Below, piece by piece: positions 6,093-34,375 of a DNA stretch of 37,454 nt. The notes under the pieces were generated by a model that saw only the letters and a program-made list of their open reading frames with translations, was not told the DNA's origin and searched no databases. The DNA is taken from positions 1-37,454 of IMG/VR virus record IMGVR_UViG_3300050343_000059. The stretch is one strand, 5' to 3'. The DNA is from a virus. Each line of letters starts with the position of its first letter. The first letter of the stretch is position 1. The position numbers and the translations under genes are program-made.

Positions 6093-6269
6093 ATGTACTT
6101 TATAATATTTAAAAATAAAAATAATATCCTTACTTCCTATTCTAACCAAATATTTTCCACAGAAGCTGAAGCAACTGATTATGGCCAGAGAAGTCTTAAA
6201 AGAAAAGATGTCTGGCAAGTCGTTAGATACAACTCCGAAAACTACGATAAGTATTGGTATAAAAACTAA
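6093..6269 (+). CDS. Unknown 58-aa protein convergent with the integrase
   Basis: ATG at 6093 directly after the terminator. The second half looks protein-like (FSTEAEATDYGQRSLKRKDV, then W-Q-V-V-R-Y and Y-D-K-Y-W). Its stop overlaps the last bases of the integrase gene on the other strand. No ribosome site is obvious and the true start may be internal. Function unknown. Confidence 0.45.
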   Translation: MYFIIFKNKNNILTSYSNQIFSTEAEATDYGQRSLKRKDVWQVVRYNSENYDKYWYKN

Positions 6270-7435
6270 TTCCAATTGTAATTGCTAGTTTGATGATCTG
6301 AGTATTTTACAGAGTCTTTACTTGTAGCATATTTCTTAATGTAATTTGTATTGATAAACTTTAAATCAAGATCCCCCATGTGTGTAGCAAGATCAAATGG
6401 ATTTGTGTACTTACCTTGATAGCACCAATAAGATACGTTCCAATGTCTAAAAAAATAGGTCTTTCTGGCCACAGGGAGCTTCAGATTTAACGATTCAACT
6501 GCTTTGTCTAGGCAAGTAATCATATTCTTTAAATCATGGAATTTACCCTTAGAATTAAGAAAGATACATTGTTGATCTTCAGGTAGAGTATTCATGTAAT
6601 CTATAAGCTGATCTTTTAATGATGCACTTATCTCAAGCTCTCTATAACCAGCTTCTGTTTTAGGTGGTGCTAAACCCTTTTTATAATCCACAGAATTAGT
6701 TACCTCAAATACTGGTATATTTCTTTTAAAGTGAAAGTTTTTTCTTTGTGCAGCTCTTGCTTCACTAGGTCTGCAAGAGGTTTCTGCCATTAACTTAAAC
6801 ATTAATTGGTATGGCTTAGAGGGTATCTTAGAGATAATAGTTTTGATTTTATCAAAGTTCCATTCCTCAAAGTCAATCTTGCCTGACTTTTTCTTCTTTG
6901 GAGCATCTTCTTTTTTAAAAAATGTAGCAGTTTTAAATACATTAACTTTAAATGGATTTGTTTCTGCCATGCCAACTTGTGTGTCATATATTCTAGCAAA
7001 GGTATGAAAGATTTTCTTTTTATATTCAAAATCTAAATCATCAATCTTTTTAATAAAGTCTGCTATATACTCTACATCAACTTTAGTTAAATCTACATCA
7101 CCACAATGCTTTTCAATATGCTTATAATGTTCTGAGTATTCTTTAAATGTAGTCATACTAAATCCAGTAGTAGGCTCATTGGCTCTTGATTTACATTTCT
7201 TAGAATAAACATTCCAGGCATAAGATAAAGGAACTGAAATAATTACATTCATATTTTTAGGATTTATATTTCCAATCCTTAATAATATTTTTTCAGCTTC
7301 TTGTTCTAGCCATTGTTTGTTTGGACTTTGTATTACTTTTTTCTTACCTTGATCTTTATATGTAAATGTATGTGCTTTATGTTTCTTACCTTTAACATCT
7401 ACCCATGTTCTTTTGCCTAGCTTTATTTTGTTCAT
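6266..7435 (-). CDS. int: Tyrosine site-specific integrase
   Basis: 389 aa behind AGGAGATAAG. The N-terminal part (about 1-60) looks like an arm-binding domain, 95-175 like a SAM-like core-binding domain, and 190-380 is catalytic. Visible active-site residues: R222 in ETSCRPSEARAAQ, K259 in PPKTEAG, R330-H331 in YFFRHW (Tyr327 where many have His), H353 in THMGD and the nucleophile Y365 in NTNYIKKY. It sits beside a tRNA-Asn attachment core at 7676, so it should recombine phage and host DNA there. Confidence 0.93.
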   Translation of the reverse strand: MNKIKLGKRTWVDVKGKKHKAHTFTYKDQGKKKVIQSPNKQWLEQEAEKILLRIGNINPKNMNVIISVPLSYAWNVYSKKCKSRANEPTTGFSMTTFKEYSEHYKHIEKHCGDVDLTKVDVEYIADFIKKIDDLDFEYKKKIFHTFARIYDTQVGMAETNPFKVNVFKTATFFKKEDAPKKKKSGKIDFEEWNFDKIKTIISKIPSKPYQLMFKLMAETSCRPSEARAAQRKNFHFKRNIPVFEVTNSVDYKKGLAPPKTEAGYRELEISASLKDQLIDYMNTLPEDQQCIFLNSKGKFHDLKNMITCLDKAVESLNLKLPVARKTYFFRHWNVSYWCYQGKYTNPFDLATHMGDLDLKFINTNYIKKYATSKDSVKYSDHQTSNYNWN

Positions 7436-7516: not shown

Positions 7517-7559
7517 TATGTTTCTTATTTGTTTCATTCCATGTTGCCTCTATGTTGCA
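7517..7559 (+). repeat. attP arm-type repeats, integrase-proximal side
   Basis: Copies of YATGTTKCY: TATGTTTCT (7517-7525), CATGTTGCC (7540-7548) and TATGTTGCA (7551-7559). The last two are 11 bp apart, one helical turn. Placed between int and the tRNA core, they look like binding sites for the integrase N-terminal domain. Confidence 0.6.
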
Positions 7560-7675: not shown

Positions 7676-7720
7676 TCCTCGGTAGCTCAGTTGGTAGAGC
7701 AGTTGACTGTTAATCAATTG
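7676..7720 (+). other. attP core: 5' half of tRNA-Asn (anticodon GTT)
   Basis: 45 bases read as acceptor strand TCCTCGG, D-arm GCTCAGTTGGTAGAGC, and anticodon arm GTTGACTGTTAATCAAT with GTT at 7709-7711. The sequence then leaves the tRNA pattern: no variable loop, T-arm or 3' acceptor follows. This is not a working tRNA gene but a copy of the host gene's 5' half, beside the integrase. After integration the phage would provide the 5' half of the rebuilt tRNA gene. Confidence 0.85.
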
Positions 7721-7749: not shown

Positions 7750-7784
7750 TATGTTTTGTATCTTCATGTTTCCTATATGTTTCT
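7750..7784 (+). repeat. attP arm-type repeats, distal side
   Basis: TATGTTTTG (7750-7758), CATGTTTCC (7765-7773) and TATGTTTCT (7776-7784); the last two are again 11 bp apart and in the same orientation as the other arm. Further GTTTCC copies on the opposite strand lie at 7813-7827. Confidence 0.6.
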
Positions 7785-23988: not shown

Positions 23989-24135
23989 CTAATTCATAAA
24001 CCAACTAAAAGCCTTATCGCTTTCAGTATTGTTTTTATTAATTAATGTATTTACAGCTTCTTCAACTTGTCTTTGAAAAAACTCTTGTGTTTCAATTGAA
24101 TATCTAATGTTATCTATATCAATTTTATCACTCAT
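23989..24135 (-). CDS. Small helical protein between tail tube and fibre genes
   Basis: 48 aa. MSDKIDIDNIRYSIETQEFF then QRQVEEAVNTL and a short tail. ATG overlaps the stop of the tail-nozzle gene. It may be a fibre-to-tail connector. Not recognised. Confidence 0.5.
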   Translation of the reverse strand: MSDKIDIDNIRYSIETQEFFQRQVEEAVNTLINKNNTESDKAFSWFMN

Positions 24136-25613
24136 TATCTTGATCCACCTTGACTTGCAGTTAAATCAATTCCTTGTGCATTAGTCCAAATACTTTCTGC
24201 TGGTATTTTTACATTTGCTCTAAAATATCTACCACTTTGTCTTACAGGATTTATCCCTGTGTCATTCATTGAACTTGATGCAGAGTAGTAACAGTATCTG
24301 CTAATTTATCTCTAGTCTTAATAGTTACATTTGCACTTGCATCTACAATTGGTCTAATACCAGTTACATTTGCTCTAAGACCTGGAAATATCTCATTTCT
24401 TTTGTTTCAAGTTCAGCTTCTAAAGTTTTTCCAGAAAAAATTGCTGCTTTAAAATTTTCATCTATTGCACCAAGATACAAATGTCCTGTTGTCCAAAATG
24501 CTGTATCAAGTGAAATATTAATATTATCTAAGTTTTCAGAAATAATATCCATTAACTCAACTGTGTTTGCTACTACGAATTGTTTAAAGATTTGTGATGC
24601 TTTAACTTTAGCAACTGACCATTTTTGAGTTACATAATTGTAAATCAGTAGTTTATCACAAATACCAGTAGTATTTGGATTATCTTTACTTGGATATAAC
24701 CAAATCGCTAAAGTATTAAATGGATCTACTGCTGCTGTAATTCTATCTGTGTATGCTTTGTTTAAATCAAATCAAAAAATCTATTTACTTTTTCAGCTCC
24801 TATCGGCAAAACTTGATCGCCATTGATTTGAAAAAATCCATCTGATGCATAAAAGAAAACTTGTCTGTTGTCTTGGCAAACTGTTTGTCCATAAACAGCA
24901 CCTCTATTTGGAGATATAACTGAAAATCTAAATACAACATTTCCACCTACAAAGTCCATTCTTACTATTTGATCTTCTCTAAAAACATAACCAACCTCAC
25001 CAGAAGTTATGGCCACAACTTGACCACCTGATCCTGGTAAGTCTTGAGTATCTGATGAACTAACACCAGCTTCCCAAGTTGAAATATCGTTAATTCCTGA
25101 CCATGCAACTCTGTTCTTTGCATTTTCTATATTACCAGTTACTAAAAAATCTCTGATAACACCTGAAACTTTAAACTTAGCTGGTACTGTTCCTATCCAC
25201 TAGATGTTGCTAATGATTGTAATGTTGCAAAGTTAGTTGAAGTACCCATTAAATAATACATGGGAGGATTAACTCCATTACTTGCAACTACATATTGTCC
25301 AAACTGTGTAAAGGTAAAAAAATCTGTATCACCACCTGATATGGTTAAACTTCCTTTTACACTAGTAAAAGTACCAGATGTTAATTTATAAATATTGTCT
25401 TTTGTTCCAACAAAAGTAAATACTGTATTTGTATTATCTCTAAAACTACCAGCACCTTTGCATTTTGTGTTACATTAGATGCACCACTATAAGCAACTAA
25501 ACCTTTAACTGGTTTGTAACTTGATTGTGCATGATAAACATTGTTGCTACAGTTGCACCAGGATTTAAATGATCTGGTTGGTCTGGCAACCATTCACCAA
25601 AAGGTAATTGCAT
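24135..25613 (-). CDS. Tail nozzle/hub protein (tubular B or stabilisation-like), frameshifted
   Basis: About 495 aa from MQLPFGEWLPDQPDHLNPGA at 25613 to SQGGSR at 24138, with breaks near 25545, 25460, 25200, 24770, 24395 and 24285. Typical of podovirus nozzle proteins: N-terminal NPGAT..NVY, a WSG(I)NDISTW segment, then VRMDFVGGNVVFRFSVISPN and VFFYASDGFFQING. It would form the tail tube end below the adaptor. Confidence 0.65.
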
Positions 25614-25625
25614 ATTTTTTTCCTA

Positions 25626-26279
25626 TTATAAAGTTGAAATAAATGGAGAAGCTACTGTGTTCATCACCTCTAATTTGTAAAGGTGCACCACTATATTGAT
25701 CTTCTCTGTCATTTAATTCTAATCGTTCCATAGCAGTTGCATACATTTGTTGCCATTGTTTGAACTTGCTGAGGATTAATACCACCTAAAAAATTAGCAG
25801 CATGAAATAAAGAACCATACAAATAAATTGCTGGGTGTGTTGTTAAAATATAATTTGTTGTAGTTGTATCTGATAAAGCATCAAACTTTTTATAATAATT
25901 TATAAAAGCTGTGTAAGTTGCATCTGGTTTTGGAGAAAATCTAAATGTATCTCCTAAAATTGTAAATGAGTTTGGCAAACCAGTTGTAGATGTTCCAACT
26001 GTGCTATCCATTTGTGATGGAGTTGTATAAGTAAAGGACTTTTAGTATTACCATTTAAAATATAAAAATCTCTTACTTGTAAAAAACCTGTAGGCAAAGC
26101 TTCTGTTTCACTATCAATAGTAAAACTTGTTTGAGCTATCATTTTTCTAACTCTTAATTTAGAGTTAAAATCAGCTTCTGTTAATTTAATAAAATCATCT
26201 GCTATCTCAGTTGTTAAATCTGATCTGTTTAACCAGTTAGCTATGATGCTTTTAAGTCTGAATAATTTGTTAGTGCCAT
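25626..26279 (-). CDS. Head-tail adaptor (tail tubular A / SU10-adaptor-like), frameshifted
   Basis: About 217 aa from MALTNYSDLKAS at 26279. After one missing base it runs IANWLNRSDLTTEIADDFIK ... MIAQTSFTIDSETEALPTGF ... INYYKKFDALSD ... YLYGSLFHAANFLGG. This is the pattern of podovirus adaptor proteins that sit between portal and nozzle. Breaks near 26245, 26035, 25765 and 25660. Confidence 0.7.
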
Positions 26280-26619
26280 TAAAATTTCCTGATGATGTTC
26301 TAAAATATCTAAATCAGAACTATTTAATTTTTCTCTTAATATTTTTTGTTGAACATCTTTAGGTAATTCAAACCAATTACCTTTGTTTTGATCTTTGTGA
26401 TATTCTTTTGTCCAAATCTCAAGAACAATTGTAGGGATAGTTGCTATTCTTTTTAATCCTTTATCAGGACTATAACCATCATTTTGATTATATAATCTTT
26501 TATTATTTTCTAAAATTGGCTTGAACATCTAATGATCTTTTTTGAACAACACCATCTTTACCATTATCTAAAAAAGTTTCTGTAATATTTTTATTTATTT
26601 CTTCACTAATTTTTCTCAT
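26277..26619 (-). CDS. Unknown neck-region protein, frameshifted
   Basis: About 115 aa. MRKISEEINKNITETFLDNG, then after a shift LYNQNDGYSPDKGLKRIATI, a helix ending KEYHKDQN and a final YFRTSSG. The stop-start TAATG joins it to the adaptor gene if one base is restored near 26290. Conserved location between decoration and adaptor genes in related phages is likely, but function is not known. Confidence 0.5.
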
Positions 26620-26753
26620 CTACGACCTTGACCTAAATATCTGTTTTGTTTTTTTTGTCTTTTCTCTGATTTGTTTTGAGATTTTTTATGAACCCCTCTT
26701 CTTTTAGGTGGTTTATCTCTAGGTACAAAATGAACAAACTTTTGTTTAGCCAC
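26616..26753 (-). CDS. 45-aa highly basic protein
   Basis: GTG start at 26753 sharing bases with the upstream TAG. MAKQKFVHFVPRDKPPKRRG (GTG read as Met), then Lys/Gln/Arg-rich sequence to QGRR. Probably binds nucleic acid or the acidic capsid interior. Too short for the usual length filters but coupled at both ends. Confidence 0.5.
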   Translation of the reverse strand: MAKQKFVHFVPRDKPPKRRGVHKKSQNKSEKRQKKQNRYLGQGRR

Positions 26754-27030
26754 TAAGCACCCATTTCAGTTACATAAACATTGTAGATGAACCATGAAAC
26801 ACAGCAATCTTTTCGCCAGGAGAAACTTTAATAATTTCAACTTCACCAGATGGTAACAAAGCTGATGTTGCACTTGCAGTAGGTGAAGCACCTAACACAA
26901 AATGAAAATTAGCTGATCCAACAATTCTTACATAATAAGTTTGTTCACCAAATGCAGCAGATGCAGTTGATGAATTGTTTGTATTCAGTTTTTGAGTTGT
27001 TCCTGGTCTTAAAGCATAATTATATGACAT
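26753..27030 (-). CDS. Small structural protein, one frameshift
   Basis: About 91 aa. MSYNYALRPGTTQKLNTNNS, YYVRIVGSANFHFVLGASPT, then EVEIIKVSPGEKIAVFHGSS. One added A near 26785 converts the tail to NVYVTEMGA and a stop that overlaps the next GTG. A beta-rich fold fits a head decoration or neck protein. Confidence 0.55.
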
Positions 27031-27143
27031 TAATATTTTCCTTTTTTACTTTTTACTTTTTTGCCTTTTTTCTTTGCAAAGGCTTTAGCTTTTTTCATTC
27101 CACTTTTTGTGTATGAAAACTTTTTTTTTCCTACCATTGGCAT
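27030..27143 (-). CDS. 37-aa lysine-rich micro-protein
   Basis: MPMVGKKKFSYTKSGMKKAK, then AFAKKKGKKVKSKKGKY. Nearly half lysine. Similar K-rich peptides sit near the capsid gene in marine phages and may bind DNA in the head. Its TAA overlaps the next ATG. Confidence 0.6.
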   Translation of the reverse strand: MPMVGKKKFSYTKSGMKKAKAFAKKKGKKVKSKKGKY

Positions 27144-27169
27144 AATTTATTTCCTTTTATTAATTGGTA

Positions 27170-27206
27170 TTTGTGGGGAAGTATCGCTAGACAAGATCCC
27201 CACAAA
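27170..27206. terminator. Long hairpin downstream of the decoration gene
   Basis: TTTGTGGGGA (27170-27179) pairs fully with TCCCCACAAA (27197-27206). It lies right after the 113-aa gene. No long T run on the minus strand, so it may be a partial terminator or RNA-stabilising stem setting protein ratios. Confidence 0.55.
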
Positions 27207-27214
27207 ATTTGTAA

Positions 27215-27556
27215 TTATCTTCTAATAACAAAAGTTATTTCCATTTTAGAAGCATTTGTTGAACCACCATCTGTGATACATTCAATAGTTCCATCTTCTT
27301 CAACTCTGTTTGCAGCAGTTGGTTCAGCAGTTGCTACTCTACCAGCAGATCCAGAAGCCACATGACTTATAGCTCCACCAGTTACTGCAACACCACCTAT
27401 TTCAAAAGAGATAGCTGCTGTTCCTGTAGTAGTTGCTTTGTTGTGTGTAATAATTTTAATTATTCTTCCACCATCAGGTACACAAACAAAAGTTGATGAT
27501 GCTGTTGATACATCTGGAATTGCAGATGTTATAAAATAATCGTTAAGTGTTCTCAT
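27215..27556 (-). CDS. Probable capsid decoration protein
   Basis: 113 aa, intact. MRTLNDYFITSAIPDVSTAS, then FVCVPDGGRIIKIITHNKAT, AISFEIGGVAVTGG and a closing KMEITFVIRR: a compact beta-barrel. Position directly downstream of the capsid gene and flanked by hairpins suggests an abundant head protein. Confidence 0.6.
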   Translation of the reverse strand: MRTLNDYFITSAIPDVSTASSTFVCVPDGGRIIKIITHNKATTTGTAAISFEIGGVAVTGGAISHVASGSAGRVATAEPTAANRVEEDGTIECITDGGSTNASKMEITFVIRR

Positions 27557-27630
27557 GTTATTTTCCTTTTTGATTGCTTCGTTCCGTCATTGACTTCAAA
27601 GACCAAACAAAATTGTTAATTTAGTATTGA

Positions 27631-27648
27631 TGGGGGATTGCTCCCCCA
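27631..27648. terminator. GC-rich hairpin after the capsid gene
   Basis: TGGGGGA (27631-27637) / TCCCCCA (27642-27648) with a 4-base loop, a striking GC block in AT-rich DNA between the capsid stop and the decoration gene. It lacks a T tract on the minus strand; an attenuator or mRNA-stabilising stem is likely. Confidence 0.6.
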
Positions 27649-27658
27649 CCAAATTTTA

Positions 27659-28619
27659 TTATGATGTAGTTAGATCGAATACTGCACCACTTGCTTTTTC
27701 GTTTTTAGAAACAAGTGTGTATTCTGCTAACATAGCTTTTTTCTCAGCATCACCAGTTTTTGCAAGATCCATAAGTTGGAAATCTCTTAAAAAGGCAACT
27801 GCCCACATATCAGGTTGTAGTACAAAACAATCTCTTGATCTTGAGAATCTGTTAGGTACAACTGTCATAGCTCCGAAATCACTTTCGTAAATGTCACAGC
27901 ATTAACAAGTCTTTTGTCTTCTGCTGAAGTCATTTTAGTTGAGCCACCAGTAAATCCTGATAGTTTTTGTTTGTTGAAAGAACCAAGCATAATCATTGAT
28001 GGATCTCCACCCTCATCCCAACATTGTTTTACAACGTCTTTAAGTTGAGCTTCAGTAAAGGCTCTTTGAGTTCCATCAGTTCTAGCTGTACCTGGAGTAT
28101 CAACACTTGATACTTGACCATTAGCACCAGAAGTACCAACTTTGTAGATGCTTGAATCCAAGAAGCTAAGCCAGATAATTTTCTAGCAGTTCCTGTAGCA
28201 CCAGCAGTACCAGTTTGGTTTGCAAACATAGAGTAGTTTCCATATCTCTTTTAAGTTCTTTTGAACTTTTAGAGATTTGGTAAGCTAATTCATTGTTTCT
28301 ACCAGCTTTATTTACTGCATCTTGAGTACCAGAAACTACAACAGCTTTTCTTGAAATCTGTGTTGTGGTTATTGATTCTTGCAGTTGGTGAAACAGCTCC
28401 AAAGCTAATTTCATCACCCTCAATATGGTGATTGTTACTTGCTGCTGCTGCTAGAGCATCAGTTTGCCACTCATGTAAAACACCAGTTGCTTTTTCTTTT
28501 CCAATTGTACTGACATAAAAGGAGTATCTGTCGGAGAGATATTATAGATAATATCAGATAAATCTTCTCTATCACCAATCGCTTGCATACGTTTGAAACG
28601 TATTACTTACTATTGCCAT
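27659..28619 (-). CDS. Major capsid protein (SU10-like), frameshifted
   Basis: About 320 aa from MAIVSNTFQTYA. Restored text: DREDLSDIIYNISPTDTPFM, LHEWQTDALAA, ISRKAVVVSGTQDAVNKAGR, AYQISKSSKELKRDMETTL, DEGGDPSMIMLGSFNKQKLS, and PDMWAVAFLRDFQLMDLAKT. This order is that of the SU10/DUF5309-type HK97-fold capsid proteins. Breaks near 28590, 28510, 28385, 28230, 28155 and 27880. It forms the icosahedral shell. Confidence 0.8.
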
Positions 28620-28641
28620 AGTTATATCCTTATTGTTGAGG

Positions 28642-29676
28642 TTATTTGTTGTTAATCATATCTAAAAAAACATCTTGAGCAGCTTTCATACTGCCAGATT
28701 TTTTTAGACGACTAAACTTTTCTCTCCTCAATTTTAAGTTAGCTTCAGATTTGCCTTGCTTAACACCTGATGAAAAAGGTTTGCTAGGTTTAGTAATCTT
28801 TTTCGCAATATTCGGTTTTGAATTTTGCATATTTCGATACTTCATAGCATCATTAACCAACATCACTATTCTATGATCGTACACTTGAGCAACTTCTTGG
28901 TCGTTAAACCCATAATTGCCAAAGTGTGCTTTTCATATTAGCTTTTAAACTTGAAGCCTTTACTAGGATCAGAAAATTCAGGCATCTTAGATACTAATTT
29001 TCTTTGTTGATCTTGTAAAAATCCATCAAATTGTTGTTTTTGTTCTGCTTGAGTTTGTTGAATAGATTGATTTAAAGCATCTTGCTTTTTCTTCAACTTT
29101 GTTCAACTCTTGCAGCTTCTGTTGGATCTTCTTCATACAGTTTATCTAAATCAGCAGAATTAATTTCTGAATTTAGTTCCTGTTGAGCAGCAGACAATCT
29201 CTGATTCAACTCATTGAGTTTTTGAGAATAGTCTTGTCTTTGCTTTTCAGACTCAGATTGAAATTGTTTTCTCTGATTAGAAAGTTCTTCAGTCTTTTGT
29301 CTATAGTCAGCATCTCTTGAGTAACCATTTCTCAACTCATCAAGGGTAACTTCTAATTCTTGACCAGCAACTTTAACAGTATAAGATGGTGGAATCTTTG
29401 TTTCTCTTGAGTATCAATTTGTTCTTCGTCTTGAGATACATCTTGCTCCGAAACTTCTTCTTCTTGTGATTCAGTTTCTTCGCTTATTTCCTGTTCCTGT
29501 GGTTGATCTTTCAGAAGATTCCTCATTTTGTGGTTCAGGAGAATTTTGTTCAATTTCTTCTTTTGGTTCTTCAGCTTTAGCTTCTTGCTTAGGCTCTAAT
29601 AAACCATTATTGCTTTTTGTGCTTTTTGCAAATCAGTTTCAGATCCTTGTAATGGGTTGCCTTGATTGTCTGACAT
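28642..29676 (-). CDS. Scaffolding protein, frameshifted
   Basis: About 345 aa. MSDNQGNPLQGSETDLQKAQ; an acidic Glu/Gln-rich zone (QEISEETESQEEEVSEQDVS); ELEVTLDELRNGYSRDADYR; a long coiled coil (QRKQFQSESEKQRQDYSQKL); and a basic C-terminus (KLRREKFSRLKKSGSMKAAQ). Acidic-coil-basic order immediately upstream of the capsid gene is that of podovirus scaffolds. Breaks near 29605, 29530, 29390, 29095, 28945 and 28915. Confidence 0.75.
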
Positions 29677-29734
29677 TGTGTTTCCTTTTAAGTTAAGCTC
29701 CTCTTATGAGGTTGGCTTATCCTAACCTTTTTGA

Positions 29735-30024
29735 TTAGAATTTTTTTTTTTGATTTTTTCTATAATCTTCTAACTGTTTAGAAGCTAGTTTTCCTGTATC
29801 AATCATTTCTAATAAATTTTGTTCTACCTTGTTGACCACATTGTAAGCTAACCAAAGTTTTTCTCTAGCATCTGTTTCTATTGCACCAGTATTAAATAAA
29901 CTTTCTGAATATAAAGTTCTTAGTTTATCAAAACTTTCTTTTAATAAAGGATCTTGAAATAATCTTTAGCTTTGTTCGCTTGGGTCAATTCCTGGTTGAG
30001 CTTGTCCTGTTCGCTGTTGTCCAT
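29735..30024 (-). CDS. Unknown 96-aa helical protein, one or two frameshifts
   Basis: Starts MDNSEQDKLNQELTQANKAK at 30024; one added A at the break near 29968 leads into RLFQDPLLKESFDKLRTLYS and EKLWLAYNVVNKVEQNLLEM. A second adjustment in the long A run near 29741 gives the stop. FxDPLLKE...REKLW proteins occur between portal and scaffold in marine phages. Role unknown, perhaps a connector accessory. Confidence 0.5.
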
Positions 30025-30029
30025 CTAAA

Positions 30030-32153
30030 TTACTCAACTTGTTGTTCTAGTTTGTCTGATGATTGTTGTGCAGCAAAAAGTTTTATTTCTATTTGATGTT
30101 ACTAATTTTTCTAAATCTGCATCTGCTTTAATTTTAGCTGCATCAAGTTGAGTATTATATTTTAGCTCCATTTCTTTAATCTTAGTTTCAAAACCTAATA
30201 GCATTCTGCTGTTTGCTTTTAATTTTTTAGCTTCTAATTCTAGCTCTGCAAGTTTTCGTTTTTCTTCAGATGCAATTCTAGTAAATTCTATTTTCTCAAT
30301 TGGTGTTGGTGGAGGTGGAGGACTAGGTTGAACCATTTCTTTACCTTCATCTGGATTAACAAAATAATTTTCAACATTTTTAAGTCCAGCATTTTCAATA
30401 ATTTTTGCAAAGTATTATAAATATTTTTTAAAGCTAACCATTGGATATTCTTTGACCACCTTGTAATTGAAATGCTTGTAATTGTCTTTGTAAAATATTA
30501 TTTAACATAACAATTTGTTGATCTTTAGAACCAGCACCTAAACCAACTGTTAATTGAAATATTATATCTGTTTTTCCATTCAGTAGGTTTAACTGGTACA
30601 AATTGATTATTTAATTCTACAATTCTTTCTTTGTCTTGATACTTAAAGTAAGCTCAAATATTCTTTTAAATAAATCTTTAACACCAGTTTCAGCAAATAC
30701 TCTAGCAATTAATTCCATTCTCATTTGAGATTGGCTCATTAAAGTATTTACACCAGTTGCAGTTTTATTTAAGTGCATCTGCATCTAAACCTTGTGAATA
30801 TCTTGTAATACCAGTTCTAGTTTCTCTAACTGTGTCTAAGTATTCTAATAATGGAAATGCTTGTTGTGAAATCGTTTGGATTGCATTGGCAGCATAACTT
30901 GACTTGGTGGTTGTTTAGTTCTAACCACACCACCTGGTCTTGAAGTAAGTAGGTCATCCAAGTTGACCATTCCATCCATAATAGCCACTCTGTTATTATT
31001 AGTTAAATACATATTATCTAATAACTGACGCATAACAGTTGATTTAACTAACTGAACATCTTCTACTAATTCTGAAACTGATCTACCATAAAATCTGTGT
31101 GGCATTGGAATTGGAGTTAAAGAACAGAAAGGAATAAAATCGCAAGGCATATTTTCTAAAATAACATTTGCGTTTCCACCAGCTACAATTACTTTTCTAA
31201 GTTCTGCAATACCATCGCCATCCATATCAATTTTAACATAGCACTCATAAATTTCTATATCTTGTGTACTCTCATCTGGAGCATCATTTATTGGACTTTC
31301 ATCTATATCAGCAAACCTTGCTAATCTTTCATCATTAATAAAGTAACAGTATTTTGAGTAGGAAGATCATCTATAATATCTCTATCAAAACCCATTTGAA
31401 TTAAATCGGATCTAGTTTTTAAAACTCTGTGTGCAACAAAATTGCATCTTCAATACTTTTGCTGATCTTTGAATTAAAAATTCTTCAGGTGGTATATTTT
31501 CTATTTTAACTTTACCAGCTTTTAGTTCTTTTAATAATACAATTATATAGTTTAGGTGTTGGTATATCCAACATTCTTGACCTTGTGCTTCGGCTAATTG
31601 CTTTTATTTGTTCTAAGTTGTTCTTTTGCTTTTTCATCAACAAAACTTTCTTCTTCAACAACTTCAACATCATCATTATCAATTAATATTTGATATTCTT
31701 GTTCGTTTAAATTTTCGTAAGTTTCTTGCTCAACCTTTTCACTTTCATCCCAATAAACTTTTACAATTCCATTCTTTTCAATTAACGCATCTTTAAACCA
31801 GGTATATAAAATTGAAAAACCATCATTATCTTTGTTAAAAATATAATTAATATAGTTAGTTGCTTGTTCTGCAAGTGCTACATCTTCTGCTTTTACTGGT
31901 TCACACTTAACTACTTGATCTGATGCTGTAAAAATTTTAAGTAGGTTTGGCAAGATGGTTTCAACAGTGTCAGCAACATCTGTACTAACCACTTGTGATC
32001 TACCATCAATCTCAGTACCTAATTTTCTCCCATGTAATATTCTAAAGATTTTTTTCTTTGAGCTGATAGGCACCACCCATATAACCCATAGAGTTATTTA
32101 TCTCTTGACCAAAATATGTTTTTTAATTCTAATTCTGTTACTTTGTCTGCCAT
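30030..32153 (-). CDS. Portal protein (P22-like), frameshifted
   Basis: About 705 aa from MADKVTELELK. Recognisable segments: LGTEIDGRSQVVSTDVADTV (the R-S-x-V-V-S-x-D motif near the N-terminus), FSILYTWFKDALIEKNGIVK, MDGDGIAELRKVIVAG, FIPFCSLTPIPMPHRFYGRS and VKSTVMRQLLDNMYLTNNNR. The C-terminus has a proline run (PSPPPPPTP) and a coiled-coil tail. These fit P22-type portals that form the 12-mer DNA gate. At least ten breaks. Confidence 0.8.
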
Positions 32154-32154
32154 A

Positions 32155-33417
32155 TTAAACTATATAATTTGTTTCGACTGGTACTTCTTTTTCCCAATCA
32201 CTAACTTCTACACCCTCACCTACTATTCCAGTTCTAAAAGCATCAGCACAATGACTTGCATAGTTGTGCATTGGTTTATTTCTAAAACATTGATTTTTGT
32301 CATCCCATCTTTTTTGATAAGCTTTTAAATTCTCAAGAGCTTTTTGACATTTATTTTTGTCAAACCAACAATTAGGAAGTGCTTTTCTTACAGCTTCAAT
32401 CCCATCTTCAATAGATAGTTTTGGTGCTACTTCAAAAGCAATACCTAATTCTAAAGCACTCTCTAATCTTGATTTACCAAATTACCTATTTCTCTAACTT
32501 TAATATCATGGGGAGCTATATGCTTTGAATACTCATATTCTTTTCTATTAATGACATCTACATAGTGATCTAAACCCTCACCAGCATTTTCATAATAATC
32601 TATTAATCTATCTCTCCTTTATACCTTTGCACAAACCATATCGCTGTGCTGTCATTTAAGCCCAAATCCCACCATGTTTCAGTATCTAGGTTTCATCATA
32701 CAGATTGATCTGTAATTCTCCCTGTGACTCTAATCTTTCTATTAAAGCACCATAATAAGAGCCTGTGATAGCAGCTTGAAAGAACATTCAAATTCTTGTT
32801 CGTATAAATCTTTGACATCATTTGCTTTGCAGCAGTTAATTCTTCAGGATCTAATATGTTTGTTTCACTAGCTTTAAATAAACCAGCATACCAATCTTTA
32901 TTCTTCTTAGCTTTTGGTATAATTGATAAGAAGTAATTTCTACCTTTTGGTGTTCCAATAAATACACACCACCCTTTTCGGTCTGCCAAAGCTGGTCTTA
33001 TGACTTCAGGAAATATAGTAGGTTTAATGATTGTGTTTCGTCAAATACACAACCATCTAAAAATATACCTCTTAGAGCCTGATCGTTCTCAGCTCCAAGA
33101 ATTGTAATCCTTGCACCATTGGGTAGATCGCATCTTAATTCTGACTCATTAAATTTAGTTCCAGGTATTTTACCAGCGAACTGTTTAATATAATCCCATG
33201 CTGTTGCCTTACCTTGTTTAAAGGTAGGAGATATAAAAGCATATCTTGGGTTTGGCAAAGGACAAGTAAGTGCTGCTTTAATCATTTGATTAATCATCAT
33301 TACTGTCTTTCCAGCTCTCCTATGAAGAACTAAAACACTAAATCGGTGCTTATCGATTTTTTTGTGCAAAAAATTTTGTAATTCTCTTGGCTTATATGGA
33401 ATGACTATTTCTGGCAT
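32155..33417 (-). CDS. Terminase large subunit, frameshifted
   Basis: About 420 aa from MPEIVIPYKPRELQNFLHKK. ATPase: Walker A-like HRRAGKT (32-38), Walker B VFDE (124-127), later WCVFIGTPKGRNYF. Nuclease half: DLGLNDSTAIWF, then LIDYYENAGEGLDHYV, HDIKVREIG and a final ASHCADAFRTG. It pumps DNA into heads and cuts it. Breaks near 33025, 32825, 32775, 32690, 32620 and 32480. Confidence 0.85.
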
Positions 33418-33435
33418 TTTTAAAACAAAACCCCC

Positions 33436-33627
33436 CTAATGTACTGTAACTCCTTGAGGTACATTTAATAGTTGTTCAATGCCAAAGTCTTCCATGATGT
33501 GAGTTGAGAAGTATCTACATTCTCTAAGATCGTTAAAGCCACCAAAGTGAACAACAACAGAGTTGCTGCTTTCCATAATGTAAATTACTGCTGAGTAGCC
33601 TTTTTCTTTGTCGTCAAATTCCATCAT
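33436..33627 (-). CDS. Small conserved-looking protein; frame open upstream to about 33715
   Basis: From MMEFDD: 63 aa with SAVIYIMESSNSVVVHFGGF and CRYFSTHIMEDFGIEQLL. Upstream the same frame stays open for about 30 codons and reads like protein (RHTHQIKYRWLVNIDGTYTQ) up to a TAG near 33720, behind a GGGGG tract, but has no ATG, GTG or TTG. Either a start is lost through a base error or translation begins at ATG 33627. It sits between the terminase genes. Confidence 0.55.
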   Translation of the reverse strand: MMEFDDKEKGYSAVIYIMESSNSVVVHFGGFNDLRECRYFSTHIMEDFGIEQLLNVPQGVTVH

Positions 33628-33715
33628 AAAAAATCCTTGATCTAGTTGTGTGTAAGTCCCATCAATATTAACAAGCCACCGATATTTAATTTGGTGTGTA
33701 TGTCGTTTAAAAACC

Positions 33716-33967
33716 CCCTAAAAGCTCACAAAATAACCAATAAACAAAAGCATTTGATTGTTAATCAATTGGTATTGCTCAATTAATATTGTTTTTACTT
33801 ACTTTTTAAATCTCATGTTGCTTTGGTGTTGCTTAGTTAATCAATAACTAATGAGATCCTTAACATTTTGGCAAATCTGCCAGTAAATCTTTATAAATGT
33901 ATCGTATAAATTTGTTTGTATCAGTTGAATAATTTAACTAATAAACCCTGTAATCATTAAACAATTC
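33716..33967. other. Non-coding spacer with att-like and palindromic elements
   Basis: No gene seen. It holds TTGATTGTTAATCAATTG (33754-33771), 17/18 identical to the anticodon part of the attP core. CATGTTGCT (33814-33822) and GGTGTTGCT (33825-33833) follow with the 11-bp spacing of the attP arms. TTAGTTA (33833-33839) / TAACTAA (33845-33851) is nested in TCTCAT (33811) / ATGAGA (33851). A packaging or recombination site beside the terminase genes is possible. Confidence 0.4.
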
Positions 33968-34375
33968 TTATTGCTGCCATTTAATCTCTATTGGTTTATC
34001 ACCACCATTTAAAGTTAATTTTGTATCTTTTCCATACCTAACTGGAGATAAAACAGAGCTTAACCACTTTGCGTTGCTTTGCATTTCTTTAATTAAATGA
34101 GCAAATGGCAAACTATTGTCCATCTTGCCAGAATTTTCTAATGTATTAATAGACTCCATTAATTTATCTTGAGCTTCTGCAATAACCATTTCAATGCCAA
34201 TCTTTTTACAAGTGTAATATTGATCTTGTAATTTTTCATTGTCTTTTAATTTTTGGCTAAATGTTGGCCAACTTACCATTTCAGGATCTTTGCATATTTT
34301 CCTTATGCTTTCACCATTACAGAGTCGTTCTAATATTCTTTTTTCTATTGTCTTATTATATCTTATATTTGCCAT
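33968..34375 (-). CDS. Terminase small subunit
   Basis: 135 aa, intact. The N-terminal HTH (KRILERLCNGESIRKICKDP then SWPTFSQKL) is the standard DNA-recognition part of small terminases. A central helical oligomerisation region and SPVRYGKDTKLTLNGGDKPI at the C-terminus match the family. It recognises the packaging site and recruits the large subunit. First gene of the leftward late block. Confidence 0.8.
   Translation of the reverse strand: MANIRYNKTIEKRILERLCNGESIRKICKDPEMVSWPTFSQKLKDNEKLQDQYYTCKKIGIEMVIAEAQDKLMESINTLENSGKMDNSLPFAHLIKEMQSNAKWLSSVLSPVRYGKDTKLTLNGGDKPIEIKWQQ

Follow-up and report, generated by a model that had tools for sequence, protein, structure and literature searches.

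The viral genome analysed here (the window, the whole stretch of 37,454 nt, an IMG/VR virus record) has, besides its attP, a second att-like element in the spacer between its terminase genes. Comparison across its relatives indicates that this element is a candidate integrase-binding site under selection, which resembles the attR half of an attachment site and is not a relic. The terminase large subunit of the window is related to those of the HTVC010P-type pelagiphages, and the viruses that have the spacer site are uncultured kin of phages infecting SAR11, an ocean bacterium. Binding of the integrase at this distant packaging/late locus is highly probable.

Integrase and attP

The integrase is a 389-residue protein of the tyrosine-recombinase type, encoded on the minus strand at 6266..7435 (PHROG integrase, E 9e-21). 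It matches integrase profiles, and R222, K259, R330 and Y365, which make up the catalytic R-K-R-Y set, are invariant in nine relatives. Tyrosine recombinases usually have two active-site histidines; judged by motif position, not by structural alignment, Tyr327 and Asp355 appear to occupy these two places.

The attP core is the 5' half of a tRNA-Asn(GTT), 44 bp up to the anticodon stem-loop, on the plus strand at 7677..7720. The 18 bases at 7703-7720, which the original prediction took as an anticodon core, are the anticodon stem-loop end of this half tRNA. The P-arm pair lies distal from int at 7765..7783 (minus strand, GAAACAT with a period of 11 bp), while the P'-arm pairs are on the int side at 7519..7558 (minus strand, pairs at 7540-7558 and 7519-7535). 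In the relatives, the order read from the DNA is P-arm pair, tRNA-Thr(TGT) or tRNA-Asn(GTT) core, terminator-like hairpin and P'-arm pair, and both kinds of tRNA core are present within one integrase clade; the core of the class C attP was not identified. Since attP carries the 5' half of a tRNA, the host tRNA would, after integration, have its 5' half and its promoter region supplied by the phage. No full tRNA was found beside any integrase, and a prophage search found no integrase relatives in contigs of sequenced bacteria. In relatives that seemed to lack an attP, the terminase-spacer site was considered as the real attP and rejected, because a tRNA-Thr attP lies farther upstream of int.

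The terminase spacer and its surroundings

The spacer that holds the second site is 340 bp long (33628..33967, minus strand), and its position and length are kept in relatives (319-346 bp in most). It is bordered by the gene for the terminase small subunit (TerS, 33968..34375, minus strand), which is Sf6-like (PF20901, E 8e-14), and by orf63 (33436..33627, minus strand), a conserved ORF between the site and TerL that is present in 80/80 loci with both terminase genes and has no match in Pfam or PHROGs. The N-terminal piece of the terminase large subunit (TerL) is at 32998..33417 on the minus strand, and its frame breaks further on in the window. All three genes run on the minus strand, with orf63 preceding terL.

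Several other features of this region were observed. Many structural genes at 24000-33000, and terL at 32696-33417, are split into short ORFs that are open in relatives, where the terL frame has 422-442 aa; the broken frames look like indel errors of assembly. The records compared were assembled from metagenomes, the window with its broken frames among them. The distance from terS to terL is about 720 bp longer in L032, L057, L042, L012 and L101; the added stretch lies after orf63 and before terL and suggests an inserted gene. Two copies of a G-run with T after it (GGGGGGTTTTG in many relatives) lie on the minus strand, one at 33712-33725, some 45 bp past the core of the terminase spacer, the other at 33428-33437 between orf63 and terL. 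The element is kept in relatives whatever their arm class, and is possibly a packaging or terminator element. In G054, a record of 39394 bases, the first 25 bases repeat at 38035, probably reflecting a terminal redundancy of about 1.36 kb.

Core and arm pair of the spacer site

The core of the spacer site, TTGATTGTTAATCAATTG at 33754-33771 (minus strand CAATTGATTAACAATCAA), is identical to the attP core (7703-7720) at 17 of 18 positions, exactly as originally predicted. When one mismatch at most is allowed, the attP core is found at these two places only in the window, and in 0/100 dinucleotide shuffles. The inverted repeat TTGAT-N5-ATCAA inside the spacer core spans 33754-33768.

Counted from the core start at 33754, CATGTTGCT is at 33814 (+60) and GGTGTTGCT at 33825 (+71). 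Together they form the arm pair (33814..33832), which on the minus strand is a direct repeat, GCAACAC-CAAA-GCAACAT, with an 11-bp period. These repeats are of the same kind as the window's own attP arms, with which they share 13/14 bases (p=0.004 from shuffles), and they fit the window's own integrase clade and no other. The pattern TGTTKC-N5-TGTTKC occurs four times in the window against an expectation of 0.04; three of the occurrences are in attP (7519, 7542 and 7767) and one is in the spacer (33816). On the minus strand, the first arm is 66 bp from the core in attP and 65 bp in the terminase spacer. The predicted offsets of +60 and +71, against +62 and +73 in attP, are therefore right within 1 bp, and the arm-core distances and the 11-bp period bear out the proposal that core and arm pair have the same geometry at both sites. 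The combination of core and arm pair is rare in shuffled sequences, a control suggested along with the prediction, and the element was sought and found in relatives that have an attP. The observation holds, with more behind it than was first claimed.

The order and orientation of the two elements are those of the P side of attP. Since the unit consists of a P-arm pair and a core without a P' arm, it resembles attR. It is not a full attP (POP'): in all records scanned, the terminase spacer has one arm pair only, its centre is not the tRNA-derived one of attP, and no tRNA sequence was found in the flanks of the spacer core. In the terminase spacers, an inverted repeat of core type stands about as far from the arms as the core does in attP; it is doubtful in class E (G048), where the arms are present and no clear core was found.

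Spacers of relatives

Terminase spacers were compared in 80 IMG/VR loci with terS, orf63 and terL in order, which give 65 distinct spacers, the window's included. Their common layout is a tandem 7-mer pair with a period of 11, about 50-65 bp on the core TTGAT-N5-ATCAA, and then the G-run. A perfect 7/7 pair with this period, sought upstream of the core with no sequence class assumed, is present in 51/65 spacers, and a core score of at least 9/10 is reached in 54/65, against 3% of shuffles. Both together occur in 46/65 spacers, many of them interrelated and so not 46 independent events, compared with 0.03% of dinucleotide shuffles. Further tandem pairs (AGATAAATAAAAGATAAATA and TATAAGT, period 11) are seen in the spacers of L065/L068 and L077/L081, and suggest that there are additional integrase clades; no attP was found for these.

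Co-variation with the integrase

In the records that hold both an integrase and a terminase spacer, the attP arms fall into distinct types according to integrase clade (five to six clades): GCAACAT/GAAACAT in A, the clade of the window, GAATACA in B, TATACC in D, TATACT in F, GATAAC in E and ACATAG in C. When all arms were scored against all spacers, each phage's terminase spacer matched the arms of its own clade at 12-14 of 14 positions and those of other clades mostly at 8-11, the arms of clades F and D being too similar to tell apart in this scoring. The own-clade match is significant against shuffles in 9/10 cases; the exception is G055, whose arms are too degenerate to score and whose degenerate TATATTGATTAGATACA, 62 bp from its core, is compatible only. 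Across 17 records, arm-class patterns are restricted to attP or the terminase spacer, and none of the wrong clade occurs except for D-type P' arms in the attP of clade F. In G011, G016 and G017, whose contigs do not include attP, the spacer is of the class that fits the integrase gene or fragment present.

Arm-core distances follow the integrase as well. They are, for attP and spacer respectively, 55 and 54 bp in clade B, 65-66 and 64-65 in A, 64 and 62-63 in D, and 63 and 62 in F, so that the spacer distance equals that of the phage's own attP minus about 1 bp. In the integrase tree, records cluster by spacer arm class. A single arm class sits beside terminase small subunits that are 33% to 100% identical to the window's, and the possibility that TerS dictates the arm class was rejected because one class spans this whole range. 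As the site varies together with the integrase from one family member to the next, it would be a maintained working site, a second landing pad for the integrase. The arm class thereby gives a putative sequence code that ties orphan terminase contigs to an integrase clade.

Cassette exchange and genomes without an integrase

The arms and core of L007 (class A) and L010 (class B) differ, while the ends of their spacers are near-identical (60/60 and 44/44). L022 and L034 likewise have near-identical flanks around a swapped A/B arms-core cassette. In both pairs the swapped segment stops at the right end of the core, and this boundary delimits the functional unit as the stretch from arm pair to core.

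Two comparisons with integrase-less genomes are informative, the isolate HTVC106P and the contig G009, the other isolates being without a comparable terS spacer. HTVC106P has no annotated relative of the integrase, and tblastn found none; both arm pair and core are missing from its spacer. In G009, no integrase was found by profile or tblastn across 17 kb on the terS side; its spacer has no arm pair and does have a core-like sequence. The HTVC106P spacer (L120:35240-35600) also contains two DnaA-box-like 9-mers, TTATACACA and the reverse complement of TTATCCACA, and is perhaps a replication origin; the window has one DnaA-box-like 9-mer, located outside its terminase spacer.

Orientation and central bases

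In every genome that shows both sites, attP and the terminase-spacer site are directly oriented. Recombination between direct repeats would yield two circles, of 11.4 kb and 26 kb, and no inversion, so that inversion of the genome, one of the roles originally suggested, was rejected. In 8/8 genomes, one to three of the seven central bases of the spacer site are unlike those of the phage's own attP (4-6 of 7 shared); in the window the difference is one base. The overlap identity needed for recombination of attP with the spacer site is thus found in 0/8 genomes. A search of IMG/VR with exact patterns, which gives a weak negative, found no junctions between attP and the spacer site. Because the centre never equals that of the own attP and no junctions were found, a binding role is favoured over recombination with attP. 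The suggestion that the integrase splits the genome therefore looks unlikely, while that of a decoy or regulatory integrase site, among the roles first offered, is the one that the comparison of sequences tends to support.

Possible functions of the site

The spacer site lies just ahead of orf63, terL and the structural genes, and beside terS, a position that suggests control of late/packaging genes or of terminase access. In headful phages, the neighbourhood of the terminase small gene is the usual place of pac. Gating of the late/packaging operon by the integrase through this site is the most likely of the roles considered, at about even odds. A bolder reading goes further and is put forward tentatively, with slightly less than even confidence: the integrase would double as a gatekeeper of packaging/late genes by means of a dedicated, non-recombining, attR-like operator beside the terminase genes, which co-evolves with it and is swapped as a cassette. 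In gating, the N-terminal domain of the integrase would grip the arm pair and its core-binding domains the inverted repeat, so that a stable complex like that of attR would form on the spacer. Since the central 7 bp are unlike those of attP, this complex would not be meant to recombine with attP. As long as integrase is abundant, the complex would block late/packaging transcription or the access of terminase, and the decision to integrate would thereby be coupled to a restraint on packaging. An operator of this kind must match its integrase, so the pair, about 10 kb apart, would co-evolve, and the operator would be exchanged when integrases are. No sigma-70-like promoter was found on the terminase strand of the spacer; a roadblock or a packaging block would therefore be needed, and promoter overlap is unsupported. 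A point against gating is that the spacer core is complete with both half-sites, which is more than a simple operator needs.

The retention of both half-sites speaks for the main rival, in which the integrase recombines the spacer site with itself (ter x ter) and so circularises terminally redundant genomes or resolves concatemers or dimers, like Cre-loxP in P1. The centre would then have to match only itself and may differ from that of attP. The Sf6-like TerS of the window is of a headful type, with pac usually near terS, and redundant ends could both carry the site. However, isolates of this phage group have their own nuclease and single-strand-annealing genes, which would make such a function redundant, and lambda-type tyrosine integrases poorly recombine two identical P-arm half-sites. 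We consider this rival unlikely, if still a serious competitor.

An accessory or titration site, which would sequester integrase or influence attP recombination from afar, in the manner of Mu's internal activation sequence, also fits the arms and core, the absent promoter and the match to the integrase. It leaves unexplained the constant position exactly between terS and orf63-terL, and is rather improbable. Splitting of the genome by recombination of attP with the spacer site, into an 11.4-kb circle with the integrase, early genes and terS and a 26-kb structural circle, would agree with the direct orientation, the matched arms and, in the window, a centre one base away from that of attP; yet tyrosine integrases require overlap identity, and with the mismatched centres in 8/8 genomes and the lack of junctions this outcome is very improbable. 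A relic of an older attachment site (as originally suggested) or chance in AT-rich DNA is the least probable of all, since even with an AT-rich spacer and a core that by itself is a near-palindrome it is contradicted by the frequency of the layout in spacers as against shuffles, by arms that track integrase specificity in at least five clades, and by precise cassette swaps.

Comparison with known systems

The spacer site shares with attR and attP of tyrosine integrases (lambda Int type, tRNA-targeting) the P-arm direct repeats, the core inverted repeat, a conserved arm-core spacing and integrase-specific arms. It is unlike them in being 11 kb from int, between terminase genes, in having no P' arm, and in a centre that matches neither attP nor the tRNA. 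In phage P1, the recombinase site loxP is close to pac, and in this nearness to the packaging locus the two systems are alike; Cre, however, has no arm sites and loxP is not matched to an attP.

IntS of prophage KplE1 represses its own promoter, which is overlapped by its binding sites in attL (PMC2951348). There, as is proposed for the spacer, integrase binding sites serve regulation, but in KplE1 the site concerned is the attachment site proper and the gene is int, whereas the spacer site is separate and ahead of packaging/late genes. The integrase of Tn916 was proposed to act at oriT, away from att and where DNA export starts (Rocco and Churchward 2006, as cited and questioned in PMC9371924 and PMC6499999). 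Tn916 differs in being a conjugative element with a relaxase in place of a terminase; the result is contested, and the parallel drawn with it is one of described function. The HTVC010P-type pelagiphages (HTVC010P, HTVC106P and Polarivirus skadi) resemble the window in terminase and genome plan; the isolates examined differ in having no detectable relative of its integrase, and HTVC106P in a spacer without such a site.

Comparative genomics thus points to a second DNA target of an integrase that is conserved, remote from attP and located at the packaging locus; no integrase-bearing member of this marine phage group was in the isolate collection searched. The question whether integrases regulate outside att sites becomes testable. 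If occupancy by the integrase holds packaging back, a single protein would let a temperate phage tie its integration decision directly to late functions.
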